Shown here: one piece after another, positions 24,298-33,465 of the stretch
How positions within the stretch are numbered: the stretch's first letter is position 1
Layout of the letters: each line of letters starts with the position of its first letter
NCBI RefSeq assembly: GCF_006636205.1
Contig: NZ_VIGB01000003.1
Coordinates: 4,144,501-4,208,500 of the forward strand
Direction of reading: 5' to 3'
Origin: Kitasatospora acidiphila
GTDB lineage: Bacteria; Actinomycetota; Actinomycetes; Streptomycetales; Streptomycetaceae
DNA: 64,000 bases
Notes under the pieces: model-generated
What the model saw: only the letters and a program-made list of their open reading frames with translations
Told to the model about the DNA's origin: nothing
The model's database searches: none
Program-made: the position numbers and the translations under genes

Positions 24298-24501
24298 GGT
24301 CGTTCCACCTCTGGTTGGCGTTCGGCACACACGTGCCTCATTCAGATCGTGGCCGTGATCCGCGGCCCCGGCGGCCGGAGTAAGGCATCAGAGGGACCAT
24401 CAGGTCGTGAGCGCTGACCCCGGCTGCGGCATTCGCCAGACCGGCGGAGGCTCGGAAGCGAGGCCCCGACCACTAAGTAGCCGATCGCAACCCAGACGGC
24501 A

Positions 24502-24547
24502 GAACCGGGCGCCCCCGGGCACAGGTGCCCCGGAAAGCGCCCGGTTC
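24502..24547 (-). terminator. Strong terminator of the peptide operon
   Basis: GAACCGGGCGC and GCGCCCGGTTC are perfect 11-bp outer arms (24537-24547 and 24502-24512). An inner stem of CCGGGGCAC with GTGCCCGG closes the loop. It lies 15-60 nt past the stop of the last peptide gene. Confidence 0.85.
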
Positions 24548-24561
24548 CTCGGGCCGGCGAC

Positions 24562-24741
24562 TCAGTCGGTGTCGTCGAACGCACCGTTGAACTGGTGCAC
24601 CGCGAACGCCAAGCGGTCGTGGCCGCCGCCGTCGTTGGAGTCGTTGTCGTCCAGGTTGCCCACCGAGTGGTCGTGGGCCGACCCGCTCTCGTCAGCCGCG
24701 TGGACCACGGTGATGTCCTCCGGGTTCAGTGATTTCGCCAT
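24562..24741 (-). CDS. Putative RiPP precursor peptide B
   Basis: A 59-residue peptide with no Cys. Residues 1-13 (MAKSLNPEDITVV) are identical to those of peptide A, as are H23-D24, residues 28-37 (GNLDDNDSND), G39-G40, D42 and the last four residues (DDTD). The variable part is residues 43-55 (RLAFAVHQFNGAF). The two peptides have exactly the same length. The ATG at 24741 follows GAGGAGGAAGAG, a very strong ribosome-binding site. It is the last gene of the operon before the terminator. Leader/core layout, conserved ends and variable centre are typical of RiPP precursors; the final product is unknown. Confidence 0.75.
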   Translation of the reverse strand: MAKSLNPEDITVVHAADESGSAHDHSVGNLDDNDSNDGGGHDRLAFAVHQFNGAFDDTD

Positions 24742-24768
24742 CTCTTCCTCCTCTCTGGTCATGTCGCA

Positions 24769-24794
24769 CCTGCCGCCGGACACCCGCCGGCAGG
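24769..24794 (-). repeat. Hairpin between the two precursor genes
   Basis: CCTGCCG (24769-24775) pairs with CGGCAGG (24788-24794), with further partial GC pairing inside. It sits in the 112-nt gap between the peptide genes and could set their mRNA ratio by processing or partial termination. Confidence 0.45.
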
Positions 24795-24853
24795 CCCTCG
24801 CACACTGCGAAAGCTCGAAGAACGCGGCCGCGCCGGAGCGGGCCCTTCCGGGC

Positions 24854-25033
24854 TCAGTCCGTGTCGTCGCCGCCGCGGACCCGGTAGCGGCGCATCCACT
24901 CGACCGCGTCGCCGCCGCCCGAGTCGTTACTGTCGTTGTCGTCCAGGTTCCCGTTGCTCAGGTCGTGGGACGCGACCGATTCACCGGCCGACTGGACCAC
25001 GGTGATGTCCTCCGGGTTGAGCGATTTCGCCAT
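24854..25033 (-). CDS. Putative RiPP precursor peptide A
   Basis: A 59-residue peptide paralogous to peptide B. It has the same first 13 residues, the same GNLDDNDSND block at 28-37 and the same DDTD end. Its own variable region is residues 43-55 (AVEWMRRYRVRGG), basic and aromatic where peptide B is hydrophobic. It has no Cys, which argues against lanthionine, sactionine or disulfide chemistry. The ATG at 25033 lies 1 nt after the stop of the M16 partner gene, with GGAAGGG as ribosome-binding site, so it is translationally coupled to the maturation genes. The Asp/Asn-rich block is a plausible recognition or hydroxylation site for the JmjC enzyme. Confidence 0.77.
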   Translation of the reverse strand: MAKSLNPEDITVVQSAGESVASHDLSNGNLDDNDSNDSGGGDAVEWMRRYRVRGGDDTD

Positions 25034-25034
25034 G

Positions 25035-26396
25035 TCAGGCCCTTCCTTCGTCGTCGGTTCTGACCGGACCCAGTCCGGCGGAGTGCAGGCTCGCCAGCAA
25101 CGGCCGGGCCTCTCCCTCCACCACCACGGTCAGGTCCGAACTGCTCAGCTGGTTTCCTGCGGCCTCGTTCACCGAAGTCCGGTCGAGTGAGGCCAGTTCT
25201 CGGTACTTCCGGGAGTGGAAGTCGTCAGTGCCGCCCAGCGACGCCAGGCAGCCGAGGGCGATGCCCACCGCCTGCGGCGTGAGGTAGGCGATCGGGAACT
25301 GACCGGTCAGCAGGGCGCGAGCGGCTTCGAACTCGTCCGCCGTGACGCCGCCTCGGCGCAGGGTCTCGATCTCCTGGAGCACGGTCGCGACCACCTCGCC
25401 GGCGGTCTCGGTGCCGGTCTGCGTCCGCACCGAGAAGACGCCCGATCGGCTGGTCAGCTGCAGTCCGGCGGACACCTCGTAGACCTGTCCCCGGCGGTCG
25501 CGCAGCTCCCGGGCCAGCCTGGAGTGGGTGGTGCCGCCCAGCACGTGGCACGCCACCGTCAGCGGAGCGTGCACGGAGGCGGCGTCGACCGGGACATGAT
25601 GGGCCAGCGCGATCCGCGCGCCCACCGCACCGGGCCGGTCGACGACCACGAAGTCCCGCCCCACGGCCGGCCGGGGGACGGACCGCGGGGCGCCGGCCGC
25701 CACCGCCTCGCCGAGCGCCATCGGCCCGCCGAGCGCCGCGCCCGCCTCGACGACCATGTCGAGGTCGATGCCTGCGAGGTCACCGGCCAGCACCAGTCGG
25801 CCCGTTCCGGCGATGTGGTGCCGGTGGTACTCGCTCAGGAAGCCGGGCGTGATCGAGCCCACCGAGGCCACCGTCCCGCGCAGCGGCACGGCCTGCCGTC
25901 CGCTTTGGTAGAGCACCCGGGCCAGCGCGGCCTCCTGGCGCCGACCGGGTTTCGACCAGTTCGCGGCGAGGGCGGACAGTTGGCCGTCCCGGATCCGGGC
26001 GACCGCATCCGCTGCGAGCCGGGGACGGCGCACGGTCTCCGCGATGACACGCACGGCCGGTACCAGGGCAGCCGTCGGCGCGACGGTGGCGACCAGGACG
26101 AAGTCGTCCCCCACCGTCGTGGACCAGGTGGCCCCCATCCCCTCCAGCTCGAAGGCCAGCTCGTCCCGCCCGAGCCGCTCCCCACCCTCGCGCACCGCCG
26201 CGAAGAGCAGCTGGAGCACGCCCTCCTTGCCGGCCGGCTCGTGCAGCACCCCGTGGTCGAAGAGCAGCGCGGCGTACCCGATGGGGCACCCGGGCAGGTC
26301 GGCCGCGATCAGCGGACCGCGGCGGATCACCTCGGGGAAGACGTAGGGCCGCGCGACTCGCGTCGCGGGTGGCCCGGGTTTCAGGTCGACGTGCAC
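25035..26396 (-). CDS. M16-family peptidase-like protein, non-catalytic partner
   Basis: A 453-residue M16B-fold protein. It has the two-lobed layout, but the zinc motif HxxEH is absent: the equivalent helix reads EPAGKEGVLQLLFAAVREGG. The C-terminal lobe keeps the conserved substrate-binding Arg/Tyr pair (RELRDRRGQVYEVSAGLQL, about residue 300). This division of labour matches M16B heterodimers such as mitochondrial processing peptidase alpha/beta. It starts 4 nt after the stop of the catalytic subunit. The tail (VVVEGEARPLLASLHSAGLG) is followed almost directly by peptide A. It probably presents the precursor to its partner. Confidence 0.85.
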   Translation of the reverse strand: MHVDLKPGPPATRVARPYVFPEVIRRGPLIAADLPGCPIGYAALLFDHGVLHEPAGKEGVLQLLFAAVREGGERLGRDELAFELEGMGATWSTTVGDDFVLVATVAPTAALVPAVRVIAETVRRPRLAADAVARIRDGQLSALAANWSKPGRRQEAALARVLYQSGRQAVPLRGTVASVGSITPGFLSEYHRHHIAGTGRLVLAGDLAGIDLDMVVEAGAALGGPMALGEAVAAGAPRSVPRPAVGRDFVVVDRPGAVGARIALAHHVPVDAASVHAPLTVACHVLGGTTHSRLARELRDRRGQVYEVSAGLQLTSRSGVFSVRTQTGTETAGEVVATVLQEIETLRRGGVTADEFEAARALLTGQFPIAYLTPQAVGIALGCLASLGGTDDFHSRKYRELASLDRTSVNEAAGNQLSSSDLTVVVEGEARPLLASLHSAGLGPVRTDDEGRA

Positions 26397-26400
26397 GGGA

Positions 26401-27702
26401 TCACGCTCCTGGGTCCGGACGGAGGATCAGGACAACTCGGTTCTCCGGCCGCAGGTGCCGGACGGCGACGCGCTGCAGATCCGCTGCCGAGACCGCGGCG
26501 ATCCGGGCCTGCCGTTCCCGGATCGCAGCCGCCTCGCCGAGCTGGACCGCATACCGCGCCAGCAGGTCGGCCCGGGCACCGAAGGGAGTCAGCGACCGAA
26601 GCCAGCCGGCCGCCAGGACCGCCTTCGCCCGCTCGAGCTCCTCGTCACGCACCGCGGTGGCGGCCAGCTCGTCCAGCAGCACCTCCTGAGCCGCCAACAA
26701 CTCTGCGACTGGAACTCCCCGATGCACCGTCATCCCGGTGGCGAAGAGCGACGATCCGCGCGCCAGCTCCCACGCGAACGCGGTCTTCTCCTCGGCGCGT
26801 GCGAGTTCCTGGTTCGCCATCAGTTCCCGGTGGAACCGGGAACCGCGCCCGCGGCCGAGCACTGCGGCCAGCACGGTCAGCGCGTCGTGGTCGGCAGTGT
26901 GGGCCGGCGGGATCCGGTGCATGACGAAGACGCGCTCAGCCGACGCCTTCCGGTCGACCACCATCCGCACCGACCGGCCCGGCAGCGGCCGGCTCTCGAC
27001 CGGAACATGCCCTGGCAGTTCCCGCTCGACCTCCCGCTCAGCCGCCGGGATGCCGGAGAAGTACCTGTCCGCCGCGTCGAACACCGCCTCCGGCTCGACA
27101 TCGCCGACCACGGTCAGCACGGCGTTTCCGGGCGAGTAGTGGGTCCGCCGGAAGGCGTCGAGCGCGGCCAGGCCGGCCCGGTCCAGCTGGTCCGGCGATC
27201 CCATCGACGGCCGCCGGTACGGGTGGTCGCCCGGGAACACCAGTGGCAGCCCGAACTCCAACCACAGCCCGTACGGTTGACTCTCGTACTGCTGAGCCCG
27301 CTCGTTCCTGACCACGGCACGCTGGTTGTCGAACACCTCCGGGGAGAGCGCCAGGCCGCCCATCCGGTCCGCCTCCAGCCAGAGGGCGAGGTCCAACGCG
27401 CTCGTCGGCACGGTCTGGAAGTAGTTGGTCCGGTCCATGCTGGTCGTCGCGTTGACCTCCGCGCCGCCGACGGCCGCAAGCATGGCGCTGTGCTGACCAC
27501 GGCCGACCTGCGCCGACCCCTCGAACATCAGGTGCTCCAGGAGGTGGGCGAAGCCGTGCCCGTCGGCCGGGTCGTCGCGCGATCCGACGTCGTACCAGAG
27601 GTTGACGGCGGCCACCGGCCCTCGGGCGTCCCGACTGACGGTGACCCGCAATCCGTTGTCGAGCCGGTGCTCGGCGATCTGCCATCCGAAGGCCTGTGCC
27701 AT
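26401..27702 (-). CDS. M16-family zinc metallopeptidase, catalytic subunit
   Basis: A 433-residue inverzincin. The zinc site is H53-L-L-E56-H57 (GFAHLLEHLMFEG), with the third ligand E134 in AVVRNERAQQYES, the spacing usual for the family. The flanking segments WYDVGSRDDPADGHG and MDRTNYFQTVPTSALDLALW are also typical. M16B enzymes cut unfolded peptides inside a closed chamber. Gaps of 9 nt to the exporter and 4 nt to the non-catalytic partner place it in one operon with the two small peptides, which are its likely substrates (leader removal or trimming). Confidence 0.92.
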   Translation of the reverse strand: MAQAFGWQIAEHRLDNGLRVTVSRDARGPVAAVNLWYDVGSRDDPADGHGFAHLLEHLMFEGSAQVGRGQHSAMLAAVGGAEVNATTSMDRTNYFQTVPTSALDLALWLEADRMGGLALSPEVFDNQRAVVRNERAQQYESQPYGLWLEFGLPLVFPGDHPYRRPSMGSPDQLDRAGLAALDAFRRTHYSPGNAVLTVVGDVEPEAVFDAADRYFSGIPAAEREVERELPGHVPVESRPLPGRSVRMVVDRKASAERVFVMHRIPPAHTADHDALTVLAAVLGRGRGSRFHRELMANQELARAEEKTAFAWELARGSSLFATGMTVHRGVPVAELLAAQEVLLDELAATAVRDEELERAKAVLAAGWLRSLTPFGARADLLARYAVQLGEAAAIRERQARIAAVSAADLQRVAVRHLRPENRVVLILRPDPGA

Positions 27703-27711
27703 GACGCCTCC

Positions 27712-29493
27712 TCAGCTGCCGGCCACGGTCGCCACCCGGGAGGTCCCGGCCAGCAGTGCGCTGTACTCGCCGCCGAGGGCGGCCAGTTCCTGGTGCGTGC
27801 CCCGCTCCAGCACCCGTCCCCGGCCCAGGACGACGATCTGGTCGGCGTTCTCGATCGTGGTGAGCCGATGGGCGATCGTGATGGTGGTGCGGTTCTTCGC
27901 CAGCTCGGCCAGGGCCTCCTGGACCGCTCGCTCGGTGCGGGTGTCCAGTGCGCTGGTGGCCTCGTCGAGGAGCAGCACGGGCGGGTTCCTGAGCATCGTC
28001 CGGGCGATTGCCAGCCGCTGCTTCTCCCCACCCGAGAAGCGGTGGCCACGCTCGCCGACGACCGTGTCGTAGCCGTCGGGCAGCCCTGCGATCAGCTCGT
28101 GGATCTGGGCCAGTTCGGCCGCCGCGACCAGTTCCGCTTCGGTGGCGTCGGGTTTGCCGAACCGCAGATTCTCGGCGACGCTCGTGTGGAAGAGGTGGGT
28201 GTCCTGCGACACCATCCCGACGGTGCGCGAGATCGTGGCGAAGTCGAGGTCCCGGACATCGACCCCGTCGATCGTCACCCGGCCGACGGTGGCGTCGTAG
28301 AGCCGCAGCACCAGGTAGCCGAGGGTGGACTTGCCGGCGCCGGTCGGACCGACCACGGCCAGGCTCGTCCCCGCCGGAACGTCGATCGTGATGTCGCGCA
28401 GCACCGGGTTCTCGCCGTAGCCGAAGGAGACGTTCTCGAACCTGATGTCGCCGCGCGCCCGCGGCAGCGGAACCGGGTCGCCGGGCTCGGACACCTCCAC
28501 CGGCAGGTCGAGGTACTCGAAGACCCGGCCGAAGAGCGACAGCGAGACCTGCACCGCCGTACCGAGCTGGATGAGCTGGATAGCCGGGTTGAGCAGGGAC
28601 TGCTGCAGCGTGGTGAAGGCCACCAGGGTGCCGACCGTGATCGCCGCGGAACCGTGACCGTCGACCAGGCCGGCGACCCAGTAGATCAGCACCGGCATGG
28701 CGGCGACCACGACCTGCAGGCCGGACTGCCGCCACCGCCCGGCCATGGTGGTGCGGACGGCGATCTCGCCGAGCGTCTTCGACTCCGCCGCGAACCGCTC
28801 ACTCAGCTGGCGGCTGCGGCCCATCAGCCGCCCGAGCAGGAAGCCGGAGATCGACAGTGTCTCCTCCACCAGAGTGGACAGCACCGCCATCTGCTCCTGA
28901 CGCTCCGTCGCCAGGGCCCGACGCTCTTGGCCCACCCGCCGGTTGACCCAGATGACGAAGGGCAGAAGCGCCAACGAGGCCAGCGACAGCTGCCAGTCGA
29001 GCAGCATCATCGCGGTCAGGCTGGCGGCCACACTGGCGGCGTTGCCGACCAGGCCGGTGAGTACGCTGGTCACCACGGTGTCCGCGCCGCCGATGTCGTT
29101 GGCGATCCGGGACTGCACCTCGCCGGTGTGGGTCCTGGTGAAGAACGAGAGCGACAGCCGTTGCAGGTGCGTGTAGACGGCGGACCGCAGGTCGCACATG
29201 ACCAGCTGTCCGATCACCGTCGACAGGTAGGACTGGAACACGCCAAGGGCTCCGCTGACCGCGGTCACGGTGACCATCGCCCCGGCCAGCATGCTGAGCA
29301 GGCCGATCCGGCGCTCCGGCAGCGCCACGTCCAGGATCTGCCGCAGCAGGAACGGCGAGGCCATCGCCACGGCCGAGGAGAGCAGCACCAGCGTCAACAT
29401 GGCCGCCACCCGGCCGAAGTGCGGGCGGAACAGGGCGAGCACCCGCCACACGGGCACCGAGGTGGGCTCGTCCGCCTGGGCCTGATCCGCCAT
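27712..29493 (-). CDS. ABC exporter, fused permease and ATPase
   Basis: A 593-residue half-transporter. Six transmembrane helices (about residues 20-310, starting FRPHFGRVAAMLTLVLLSSA) precede an ATPase domain. Walker A is VVGPTGAGKST (about 381), the signature FSGGEKQRLAIAR (about 487), Walker B VLLLDEATSALD (about 508), and the switch His is in IAHRLTTIENAD. There is no N-terminal C39 peptidase domain, so leader cleavage must come from elsewhere, consistent with the M16 pair. The ATG at 29493 follows GGAGGAGGAGAACC. It probably exports the matured peptides. Confidence 0.92.
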   Translation of the reverse strand: MADQAQADEPTSVPVWRVLALFRPHFGRVAAMLTLVLLSSAVAMASPFLLRQILDVALPERRIGLLSMLAGAMVTVTAVSGALGVFQSYLSTVIGQLVMCDLRSAVYTHLQRLSLSFFTRTHTGEVQSRIANDIGGADTVVTSVLTGLVGNAASVAASLTAMMLLDWQLSLASLALLPFVIWVNRRVGQERRALATERQEQMAVLSTLVEETLSISGFLLGRLMGRSRQLSERFAAESKTLGEIAVRTTMAGRWRQSGLQVVVAAMPVLIYWVAGLVDGHGSAAITVGTLVAFTTLQQSLLNPAIQLIQLGTAVQVSLSLFGRVFEYLDLPVEVSEPGDPVPLPRARGDIRFENVSFGYGENPVLRDITIDVPAGTSLAVVGPTGAGKSTLGYLVLRLYDATVGRVTIDGVDVRDLDFATISRTVGMVSQDTHLFHTSVAENLRFGKPDATEAELVAAAELAQIHELIAGLPDGYDTVVGERGHRFSGGEKQRLAIARTMLRNPPVLLLDEATSALDTRTERAVQEALAELAKNRTTITIAHRLTTIENADQIVVLGRGRVLERGTHQELAALGGEYSALLAGTSRVATVAGS

Positions 29494-29610
29494 GGTTCTC
29501 CTCCTCCCTCCCCGCTCGGTGACGACCTGCAATGGATCACGGCAACGACTGTGGATGACGACGACCCGGGATGACGGCGACGGCCGTGGACGACGGCAAC
29601 CGCCGGGGTG

Positions 29611-29708: not shown

Positions 29709-30926
29709 TCAGGCGAAGGTCAGGAAGCCCTCGCTGAGCAGCTTCCGGACCAGCACCAGGCGGCCGGGCTCGTCCAGCTCGCCAGGAATGGCCGCAGCGG
29801 TCAGCGGAGCGCCACTCTCGTGGGCGGCGTACCTGACCTCGTCGGCCACATGGGCGGGCAGCCGCACGGTCTTGCCGTGGAAGGACAGGTGAACCGTCTC
29901 CTCGTCCACCGTGAGGCGCCACTGCAGGTCCGGGCGGCGCCGCAGCTTGGTCTCCAGCGACACCTCGTCCACGCGCTCCAGGTCCAGCAGGTGCCCCTGC
30001 AGGACCGGCGCGTTGATCGCGACCCCCCGGGTGATGGTCCTCGCCACGGCGTCGTCCAGTGCCAGCTTCGACGGCAGCTCGGCGGCCAGCTCCGCCACGG
30101 TCTCCCGCAGCCGGCGCTGGATCTCCGCGCTGTTCGTGAAGCCCATCGGCAGGCCGGCCCGGTACCTGACGTCCGTCTCGACCAGCTGCTGCATGGCCTC
30201 GGCCAGCACGTTCGCCCAGAGGATCGGGTGCACTCCGACGGTCAGGTGCAGAGAGGCCTCGCCGGTGGCGGTACCGGCGTGCACCGTCCCGCGCGGCAGG
30301 TACAGCACGTCCCCGGCCCGCAGCTCGAACTCCTGGGCCAGTGCCGGCTCGGCCTGGGATCGGTCGAACGGCTGGGAGCGCAGCGGCAGCGCCAGCGGGG
30401 ACTCGAAGAGCTGCCACCGCTTGCTCCCGTACACCTGGACGATGAAGACGTCGTGGGTGTCGTAGTGCGGCGCGAAACCACGCGAGGTGGCCGGCGTCAG
30501 ATAGGAGTTCACCTGGATCCGGGCGCCGATCTCGGAGCCGAGCGAGCGCGTCAGACGGTTCATCGACGCGAACCGGGCCTGAATGGAGTTCATGACGATG
30601 GTGGCACCGTCGCGGTACCGGGCGTACACGGACTCCAGAGCGGTTTCCGAGCTGCCGGAGCCCAGCTCCGACACCGGTGTCTCCTTGCCGTCCTGCACCA
30701 CCCGGAGATGCTCCAGGTTTCCCCCTGCGAGGCTGAGCATCCGGTCGTACTCGGCGAGGGTCATGAGCTCGGCGTAGTAGTCCCGGTCCTCCCGCTGCAC
30801 CAGCAGCGGCTTCCGCTCCCAGTACTCCTGCCGGAAGTCCGCCAGGTCGACCGGGTGGAGCAGCCGCGCCAGCTCGAAGGGCTCCGCCCCATTCGCCACA
30901 TCAGCAACACGCATTGATTCGCTCAT
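29709..30926 (-). CDS. JmjC/cupin_4 2-oxoglutarate-Fe(II) oxygenase
   Basis: A 405-residue oxygenase of the cupin_4 (ribosomal oxygenase RoxA-like) family, which hydroxylates peptide side chains. The iron site is H154-Y-D156 (GFAPHYDTHDVFIVQVYGSK) with the distal His H216 (LPRGTVHAG). The N-terminal FRQEYWERKPLLVQR is the family entry motif. The C-terminal winged-helix-like part follows (LQGHLLDLERVDEVSLETKL). The ATG at 30926 follows AGGGGGACAACG and comes first in the operon. RoxA-type enzymes act on Arg or His of ribosomal proteins; here the operon context suggests the small Asp/Asn-rich peptides as substrates. Confidence 0.9.
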   Translation of the reverse strand: MSESMRVADVANGAEPFELARLLHPVDLADFRQEYWERKPLLVQREDRDYYAELMTLAEYDRMLSLAGGNLEHLRVVQDGKETPVSELGSGSSETALESVYARYRDGATIVMNSIQARFASMNRLTRSLGSEIGARIQVNSYLTPATSRGFAPHYDTHDVFIVQVYGSKRWQLFESPLALPLRSQPFDRSQAEPALAQEFELRAGDVLYLPRGTVHAGTATGEASLHLTVGVHPILWANVLAEAMQQLVETDVRYRAGLPMGFTNSAEIQRRLRETVAELAAELPSKLALDDAVARTITRGVAINAPVLQGHLLDLERVDEVSLETKLRRRPDLQWRLTVDEETVHLSFHGKTVRLPAHVADEVRYAAHESGAPLTAAAIPGELDEPGRLVLVRKLLSEGFLTFA

Positions 30927-30956
30927 CGTTGTCCCCCTCAGGATCAGCAACCCGAA

Positions 30957-32125: not shown

Positions 32126-33465
32126 GTGCGTGGTGGCGGGAGTGTCTTCAAGCGCTGTGGCTGCCGGGACACCCACAGCGGGCGTCAGCTCGGTAGCCGG
32201 TGCCCGAAGCTCTCGCAGCGCGGTCACGGGGCGTGGTACGTCTCACTCCCAGTCTGGGCAACTCAGGAGGACCCGCGCTCGCGGTTGCGCCAGGGCGGAT
32301 ACCCGACCAAGAGAGCGGCGCAGGATGCACTGCGGCGGCTGACCGAACCCGCGGCTCGGCGGCGTTCCCGGCTGAGTACCGCCACGTGGCTGGACCGGTG
32401 GCTGACGGGCGCCGATGAACGCCTTCGTCCGACGACCGTGCGCGGCTACCGCAGGCACGTCGAGCAGTACCTGGCTCCACTGCTCGGGCGGGTTCCCCTG
32501 CGCGGACTGACCTACGCGGACATCGAGTTGGCGTTCGCAAGGATCACGCAGAAGCACATCGCCGCCGGCCGCAAGCCGCTCAGCGCGAGCACAGTTCGGC
32601 GCATCCAGGCATCGCTGCGCGCGGCTCTCGCCGCCGCGGTCAACGCCGGGCTGATCGACCACAACCCGGCCCGCGATCTCGATCTGCCCAGGGAGCGGCG
32701 CCCGCAGCCGCACGGCTGGACAGACTCCCTCGTCGATCAGTGGCGCCAGACCGGCGCGCGCCCCGCGGTCGCGGTGTGGACGCCACTCCAGACAGCGCAG
32801 TTCCTCCACCTCATCAGCGATCACCGCCTGCACACCCTCTACCGCCTGTACGCGACCCGGGGCCTGCGTCGCGGTGAGGCGCTCGCACTTCGTTGGAGCG
32901 ACATCGACTTCGACCGCCGTGTGCTGACTGTGGAGCGTCAGCTGCAGAAGCTCGCGGGCGGAGTGATCACCGTCTGCGAGCCGAAAAGCAGAGCCGGTAG
33001 ACGCCAGATCGCGCTCGACCACGACACCATCCGCTCACTGCGGGCCCAGCAGCGCCGCCAGGAGGCCGACAAGACCGCAGCGGGCGACAAGTGGGTGACG
33101 GCGGATACGTCTTCGCCGACCCCCGGGGCGGCCCGTTGGCGCCCGACCACGTGGGGCACGTCTTCCAGCAACTGGTGCGCGACCATAACCTTCCGCCGGT
33201 ACGGCTTCACGACCTCCGCCACGGCGCCGCCAGCATGGCCTTGAGCGCCCACGTCGACTTGAAGGTCATCCAGCACCAGGTCGGACACGCCAGCGTCGTC
33301 ACCACCACGGACATGTACGTGTCCGTCATGCCCCAGACCGCCCACGAAGGCGCGGAAGCCACCGCCCGGCTCCTCCGGGACGCCGCCCGGGAGTACGTCC
33401 GTGGCCAGCGGAGCAAACCATCATCCCGCAAGCAGCCTCCGGGGTCTGGTGGAGCGATTGCGTAG
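32126..33465 (+). pseudogene. Tyrosine site-specific integrase 1, frameshifted
   Basis: A phage-type integrase of about 447 residues. An N-terminal arm-binding module (FKRCGCRDTHSGRQLGSRCP) precedes the core-binding domain (TTVRGYRRHVEQYLAPLLGR). The catalytic domain has Arg in ATRGLRRGEALALRW, HxxR in RLHDLRHGAASMAL, GHASVVTTTDMY with the nucleophile Tyr, and ends SSRKQPPGSGGAIA. One base is missing near 33092 (AAGTGGGTGACGG), so the catalytic HxxR and Tyr are in another frame. The GTG at 32126 has GGGAGGTTGCT upstream. It is next to attL and is closely related to integrase 2. Confidence 0.88.

Follow-up and report, generated by a model that had tools for sequence, protein, structure and literature searches.

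NO66, MINA53 and YcfD, the solved close relatives of the JmjC oxygenase treated here, hydroxylate histidine or arginine, not aspartate. The known NO66 and MINA53 enzymes act on histidine of ribosomal proteins (YcfD on arginine), whereas the gene described here, from a 64,000-nucleotide stretch of Kitasatospora acidiphila DNA (the window), is linked to genes for Asp-rich peptides and an exporter. The encoded JmjC protein resembles NO66 and MINA53 (PF08007) in its predicted full-length fold with winged helix and in its HxD...H triad, but as regards a ribosomal-protein substrate the gene linkage points elsewhere. A JmjC hydroxylase is already known from a RiPP pathway, that of biphenomycin, in which BipG hydroxylates ornithine in the precursor (PMC12707348). 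The likeness lies in a JmjC oxygenase working on a ribosomal precursor peptide, an action that is putative in our case, and it is one of description, as given in the accessible part of that report, rather than of compared sequences; the BipG cluster as described there also has an MNIO, a radical SAM protein and an arginase, none of which is among the operon proteins that we scanned. According to the available sections of another report (PMC12257519), co-expression of PbsQ, which is cupin-like and related to a JmjC protein of a RiPP pathway, led to no additional modification, and we count this result against the JmjC modification proposed below.

RREs fused to PF08007 JmjC domains have also been noted, with bacterial relatives in RiPP-like contexts (PMC12710340). 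Such proteins share with ours the Pfam domain and a winged-helix or RRE-like C-terminus, but the mention is brief and the accessible text of that source describes neither a precursor nor a motif or cluster like ours. The M16B pair PttP1/PttP2, which removes class III lanthipeptide leaders (PMC8960859), combines one HXXEH and one R/Y subunit, as does the peptidase pair encoded here. In the portion of that paper available to us PttP1/PttP2 act from outside their cluster, whereas our pair is a dedicated part of the operon, and M16 genes occur at 2 of the 14 loci whose JmjC homologue is at least 44% identical to ours (below, the close loci). Neither this precursor family nor a cluster of this type turned up in a literature search, which is no proof of absence.

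We found a single minus-strand gene set running from position 30950 to 24562 of the window, which encodes a JmjC_2 oxygenase, an ABC exporter, two M16 peptidases and two small peptides, B and A, in that order (Table 1). The successive gaps are 176, 9, 4, 1, and 112 nt. In all likelihood this operon is a RiPP-type cluster that has not been described before, though not a proven RiPP: the gene order, the gene families, the intact catalytic motifs and the linkage of Asp-rich peptides to an oxygenase can all be read from the sequence, and a JmjC_2 oxygenase with an intact triad is co-encoded as the candidate modifying enzyme. The JmjC gene probably starts at an ATG 8 codons inside the listed start. 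Neither a promoter nor a terminator consensus was found across 23.9-31.6 kb. Upstream of the operon a recombinase-like reading frame, recognized by eye, is split over two frames (32126-33465, plus strand); the four tRNA genes of the window lie far from it.

Table 1. Positions of the operon features in the window
Feature	Position	Strand	Basis or remark
JmjC_2 oxygenase, NO66/MINA53 (ROX) fold, C-terminal winged-helix domain	29709-30950	minus	Pfam, PDB match, model
ABC exporter (ABC_membrane + ABC_tran)	27712-29532	minus	Pfam
M16B metallopeptidase, catalytic subunit, HLLEH at residue 53	26401-27702	minus	Pfam; PDB 3amj_C "active subunit", E 5.8e-45
M16B, non-catalytic partner, without HXXEH, R/Y motif 293-306	25035-26396	minus	Pfam M16; motif scan
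Precursor-like peptide B, 59 aa	24854-25033	minus	
Peptide B, leader	24995-25033		
Peptide B, DDNDSND	24923-24943		
Peptide B, variable segment 43-55	24869-24907		
Peptide B, DDTD	24857-24868		
Precursor-like peptide A, 59 aa	24562-24741	minus	
Peptide A, leader	24703-24741		
Peptide A, DDNDSND	24631-24651		
Peptide A, variable segment 43-55	24577-24615		
Peptide A, DDTD	24565-24576		
Hairpin directly after peptide A, possible operon end	24490-24561	minus	z -2.43; matched by 3 of 200 shuffles; no T tract

Among solved proteins, NO66 and MINA53 come closest to the JmjC protein (best E 3.7e-28). Its candidate metal site comprises HYD at 162-164 and H224, and H162, D164, and H224 are invariant in all 16 aligned JmjC sequences. 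A model built from 16 sequences has a pLDDT of 84.7 (the single-sequence fold, with a pLDDT of 38, was of no use) and aligns with NO66 over 390 residues, winged helix included (Z 31.7, rmsd 5.1). The modeled C-terminus has the order beta-beta-beta-helix-helix (strands 345-348, 352-357, and 360-365; helices 366-377 and 394-406), and these elements align as the winged helix of NO66. Sequence and model together thus contain the JmjC, dimerization and winged-helix domains and the Fe-binding triad of the NO66/MINA53 architecture. The JmjC protein had no match in the phage collection.

The non-catalytic M16B partner matches PDB 3gwb (E 4.4e-21) and the "inactive subunit" 3amj_B (E 8.2e-13), so that the two peptidases have the make-up of an M16B heterodimer, with one HXXEH and one R/Y subunit. 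M16 homologues with E up to 1e-40 are present in all 70 genomes of the genus. The window and a second genome (G053) have operon copies that are 73% identical, and the homologues outside these operon copies reach at best ~41-44%. As described for lanthipeptides (PMC8960859), close loci that have no M16 pair could use a housekeeping M16 protein of this sort, on a survey that covered the window's genus alone.

Peptides A and B are identical at 36 of 59 positions. The original prediction, of two 59-residue peptides that are identical at residues 1-13, 28-37, and 56-59 and nearly unrelated at 43-55, is exact: runs of at least four identical residues fall in precisely these three blocks, and all 13 residues of segment 43-55 are mismatched. 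When the 23 differences are reordered at random 200,000 times, a mismatch run of at least 13 has a probability of 2e-5, so the mismatches are clustered beyond chance. At the codon level, codons 1-13 show no replacements and two silent changes, codons 28-42 two replacements and two silent changes, and codons 43-55 13 replacements; the serine codon of DDNDSND even belongs to different codon classes in the two genes (AGT vs. TCC). Since silent changes occur within the fixed blocks, the blocks are kept at the protein level and are not merely the trace of a fresh duplication. Both genes look real, because the ATG of peptide B lies 1 nt past the stop of the M16 gene, an AGGAGG-like site stands immediately upstream of peptide A, and homologues of the peptides are present in other genomes.

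JmjC homologues with E up to 1e-40 were found in 28 of 394 genomes of the family, 14 of them at 44-100% identity, two at 32-33%, and 12 at 36-39% over a shorter match. The first 14, all Streptomycetaceae and including the window, are the close loci, and 12 of these encode a short intact precursor-like peptide with a conserved leader and a distinct, Asp/Asn-rich tail (the window, G053, G060, G035, G126, G094, G018, G110, G072, G336, G211, and G247). The peptide gene is mostly immediately upstream of the JmjC gene; in the window, and for two of the three G053 peptides, it is at the opposite end of the operon, and ~2.7 kb separate the two genes in G247. An exporter 54%-83% identical to ours is encoded in the stretch examined at eight of the 13 other close loci. 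In three genomes (G110, G072, and G336) and on a Streptomyces clavuligerus megaplasmid, an S9 peptidase gene lies on the other strand between the JmjC and ABC genes; the annotated megaplasmid set comprises a 48-aa peptide (WP_009999493.1, with two variants of an ISDNDPxDP-type unit), a JmjC cupin, the S9 peptidase and the ABC protein.

At the two other close loci we observe a leader-like start fused out of frame to a JmjC gene missing its first part (G009; L050:9180-10700, minus strand) and, in G061 (L052), no recognized peptide. Close to the JmjC gene of G061 are, judged by eye, a carbamoyltransferase-like gene and one whose product begins like a winged helix (L052:74-10061). Further neighboring genes include a protein bearing YDATCGTC near two two-Cys peptides, perhaps indicating thiol chemistry (L018:5927-6718, minus strand; no Pfam match), a 1,722-aa reading frame directly after the exporter (L009:1374-6542, minus strand; no Pfam match), and a Suc_Fer-like gene (Pfam) directly after the JmjC gene (L072:8086-8985), with similar-looking neighbors by eye in L078 and L079.

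Nine of the 12 intact close loci have one peptide, the window and G126 have two, and G053 has three, so the pairing of two peptides seen in the window is not general. We rejected a two-peptide (class IIb) bacteriocin on the same grounds, together with an exporter for which no C39 peptidase domain appears among Pfam matches up to E 1. A lanthipeptide was likewise rejected: the operon proteins scanned include no LanB/C, LanM or LanKC/L synthetase, and neither A nor B contains Cys.

Matches to the peptides themselves are scarce. A search with a single peptide matched four of 70 genus genomes, own included; a profile matched six of 394 family genomes and one of 396 phylum genomes (the window's own), although both profile searches scored the first ~16 candidates per genome and the rarity of the peptides may therefore be overstated. 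One contig scan gave a match in Kitasatospora sp. GP82 only, peptide B had no match in plasmids, and the peptides scanned all stayed below the Pfam and NCBIfam cut-offs. In five of the six family genomes that match the profile, a JmjC gene is nearby. The six include the window's own genome; the sixth, without a JmjC neighbor, is G024, where a PIDDTD-bearing stretch without recognized leader is perhaps a relic (L019:9520-9700, plus strand) and was not counted as an intact peptide.

The peptides of the close loci share an N-terminal leader, [S/T][LI]xxx[D/E/S]Ix[V/I], at about residues 4-12, followed by an Asp/Asn-rich tail. DND- and DDND-type acidic motifs recur in tails of otherwise unrelated sequence and are duplicated at some loci (ISDNDPxDPVI twice); an ISDNDPxDP-type unit occurs twice in each of the G110, G072, and G336 peptides, and the peptides of G211 and G247 end in DDRDW. 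Seven Kitasatospora-type peptides have in common S4, L5, P7, D9, I10, V12, H23, D24, S26, G28, D31, D32, D37, G39, and D42, and all seven end in DD[TN]D. The two peptides of G126, from another genus, have FDC in place of HD and extra residues past DDSD or DDTN. The C-terminal DDTD, which had been thought unusual, thus recurs, apparently as a duplicate of the DDND block.

Segment 43-55 can be followed in G053, which has the same A/B type split as the window and a third peptide. The best match of B is G053_1 (75%) and that of A is G053_2 (69%); between A and its orthologue six of the 13 residues of the segment are kept, which makes it fairly stable within a paralogue type. From these alignments the segment marks two paralogue types. 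The stretch between the acidic blocks ranges from three residues (G035) to 14 (G053_1) among Kitasatospora-type peptides and is two or six residues long in those of G126.

These comparisons bear on the original prediction that residues 28-37 (GNLDDNDSND) serve leader or processing recognition, that 43-55 is the product core, and that DDTD is a follower, either cut off or kept. The complete divergence of 43-55 between fixed flanks fits such a scheme, but we regard it as distinctly unlikely: the matching segment shrinks to three residues in G035 and two in one G126 peptide, no scanned operon enzyme has an evident target among non-acidic residues, and acidic motifs are a recurrent feature of JmjC-linked peptides. 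A leader-type role for 28-37 was rejected because the shared leader is at about residues 4-12 and the acidic motifs belong to the tails. The wider idea of precursor-like peptides is supported, with a conserved leader, a divergent segment and an operon that has a candidate modifying enzyme, an exporter and proteases; recognition by 28-37 and a core confined to 43-55 are not supported. The conservation of 43-55 among homologues gave a divided answer, with 13 of 13 differences between A and B and partial conservation between orthologues, and the segment may instead be a linker of 2-14 residues.

The peptides read best as having two acidic blocks that would be modified and stay in the product, joined by 43-55 as a linker. 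This is a reading and not a rule, since a strict [DN]Dx[DN] pattern gives two separated blocks in 11 of the 15 peptides tested (G035 was left out). G018 has one block, and the pattern is absent from the G110, G072, and G336 peptides, which carry SDND. For the two-block peptides, 1%-28% of shuffles of the same tail also reach two blocks.

On this basis we consider it rather probable that A and B are paralogous substrates of one RiPP-type pathway, with Asp hydroxylation by the JmjC protein, leader removal by the M16 peptidases and export by the ABC protein. The JmjC protein would be the docking partner of the leader SLNPEDITVV, which might be bound by the C-terminal winged-helix domain, and, as an Fe(II)/2-oxoglutarate enzyme, it would hydroxylate Asp, and possibly Asn, in DDNDSND and DDTD. 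The M16B heterodimer would then remove the leader, and the ABC protein would export a product containing both acidic blocks and the intervening segment, in which the A and B products would differ. We infer the order of these steps and any activity of the product, which, given blocks of hydroxyaspartate, might be the binding of metal or calcium. Points that speak against the scheme are the His or Arg substrates of NO66, MINA53 and YcfD, the occurrence of M16 genes at only 2 of the 14 close loci, and the close locus L052 with its lack of a recognized peptide.

The evidence favors Asp as the target without proving it, and specificity may vary between branches. Among 23 tails compared, Asp and Ala are the only residues present in all, with Asn in 17 and His in 13; the equal presence of Ala makes shared occurrence weak evidence for Asp. 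His23 is kept in seven of seven Kitasatospora-type peptides, which counts against Asp, and His could be the target there. The JmjC protein might then be a histidyl hydroxylase like NO66 and MINA53, its best structural and sequence matches, with His23 of the invariant HD as the target and the Asp blocks serving binding, solubility or chelation; a VHDGG motif in more distant repeat peptides (below) would agree with this. We nevertheless think it unlikely, because His is missing from 10 of the 23 tails, including four [SA]DNDP-type peptides, and the G126 peptides have FDC in place of HD.

More distant JmjC genes also adjoin peptides. In the phylum sample, 12 loci in 11 other genomes match the JmjC protein at 31%-38%; eight of the 12 adjoin an Asp-rich or repeat peptide, and all eight peptides have starts like [D/E][D/E/Q]Ix[T]. 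At a further 12 loci, presumably from Streptomyces (g10; JmjC identity 36%-39%), a tandem-repeat peptide is encoded immediately upstream on the same strand in every case (that of L044 is cut by a contig end), with a repeat unit of approximately EGPADGGAAGTPGVHDGGADGGA, which contains VHDGG. The g10 loci (L036-L047) had been taken as a peptide-free control of generic ROX proteins, since 0 of 12 passed the leader filter, and were rejected as such when looser inspection showed repeat peptides in all 12. The g10 peptides have no leader motif, and leader docking therefore cannot be general.

Linkage was also found in the opposite direction: a search with the g10 repeat matched 13 of 267 family genomes, and a JmjC gene adjoins the repeat peptide in all four loci listed, three of them in genomes that the JmjC search did not list at its threshold. 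Overall, EGPADGGAAGTPGVHDGGADGGA-like tandem-repeat peptides stand beside a JmjC_2 gene in L036-L047, L065, L067, and L100-L103, that is, in g10 and in other actinobacteria.

The peptides might also be unmodified small acidic buffering peptides that bind metal or calcium, within the cell or after export, with the JmjC substrate elsewhere. Their Asp/Asn content is indeed very high (15-16 of the 59 residues of A and B), and a search of the 12 distant stretches, some of which are short, found nothing closely related to the exporter. We judge this highly improbable, given that the linkage of peptide and JmjC gene is repeated in both search directions and that the peptides of close loci have leader-like N-termini.

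A JmjC tree of 45 rows, 33 of which have a peptide, places the window in a clade of 15 rows with support of 100/99. Peptides accompany 13 of these 15 rows, eight of the 12 phylum rows and all 12 g10 rows, and neither L057 nor L058; the four plasmid rows (L096-L099) were assessed by annotation only and counted as peptide-less. A filter for leader and Asp/Asn content, applied to 28 loci, gave 15 matches in the 114 kb that lie no farther than 1.5 kb from a JmjC gene (at 14 of the 28 loci) and six matches in the 418 kb outside, five of them peptides of the same gene sets and one unrelated; the filter was written after the peptides had been seen, so this background rate is partly circular. It missed the known peptides of L009, L074, L075, and L077.

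With somewhat more doubt than belief, we propose that actinobacterial NO66/MINA53-type JmjC proteins and Asp-bearing, often repeat, peptides form a widespread peptide-modifying system in which each enzyme has such a peptide as its partner, whose products would carry repeated hydroxyaspartate and bind metal or calcium, and of which the Kitasatospora operon would be an exported, protease-equipped two-product branch. If the proposed chemistry is right, this is a RiPP-type family with a homologue of ribosomal oxygenases as its only evident tailoring enzyme, and bacterial NO66/MINA53-like proteins have natural peptide substrates. It would also provide a rule for genome mining, namely, to look for JmjC_2 genes that adjoin a gene for a small peptide, either Asp-rich or repetitive, which is supported by the linkage found from the peptide profile (five of six genomes) and from the repeat peptide (four of four listed loci). 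Two of the plasmid loci have RiPP-like surroundings by annotation: L099, on a plasmid of Streptomyces sp. NBC_00503, has a tandem pair of JmjC cupins with MFS, M13, and TPR genes, and L097, on a Pseudanabaena plasmid, has a JmjC cupin close to genes for LanM and for NHLP secretion.
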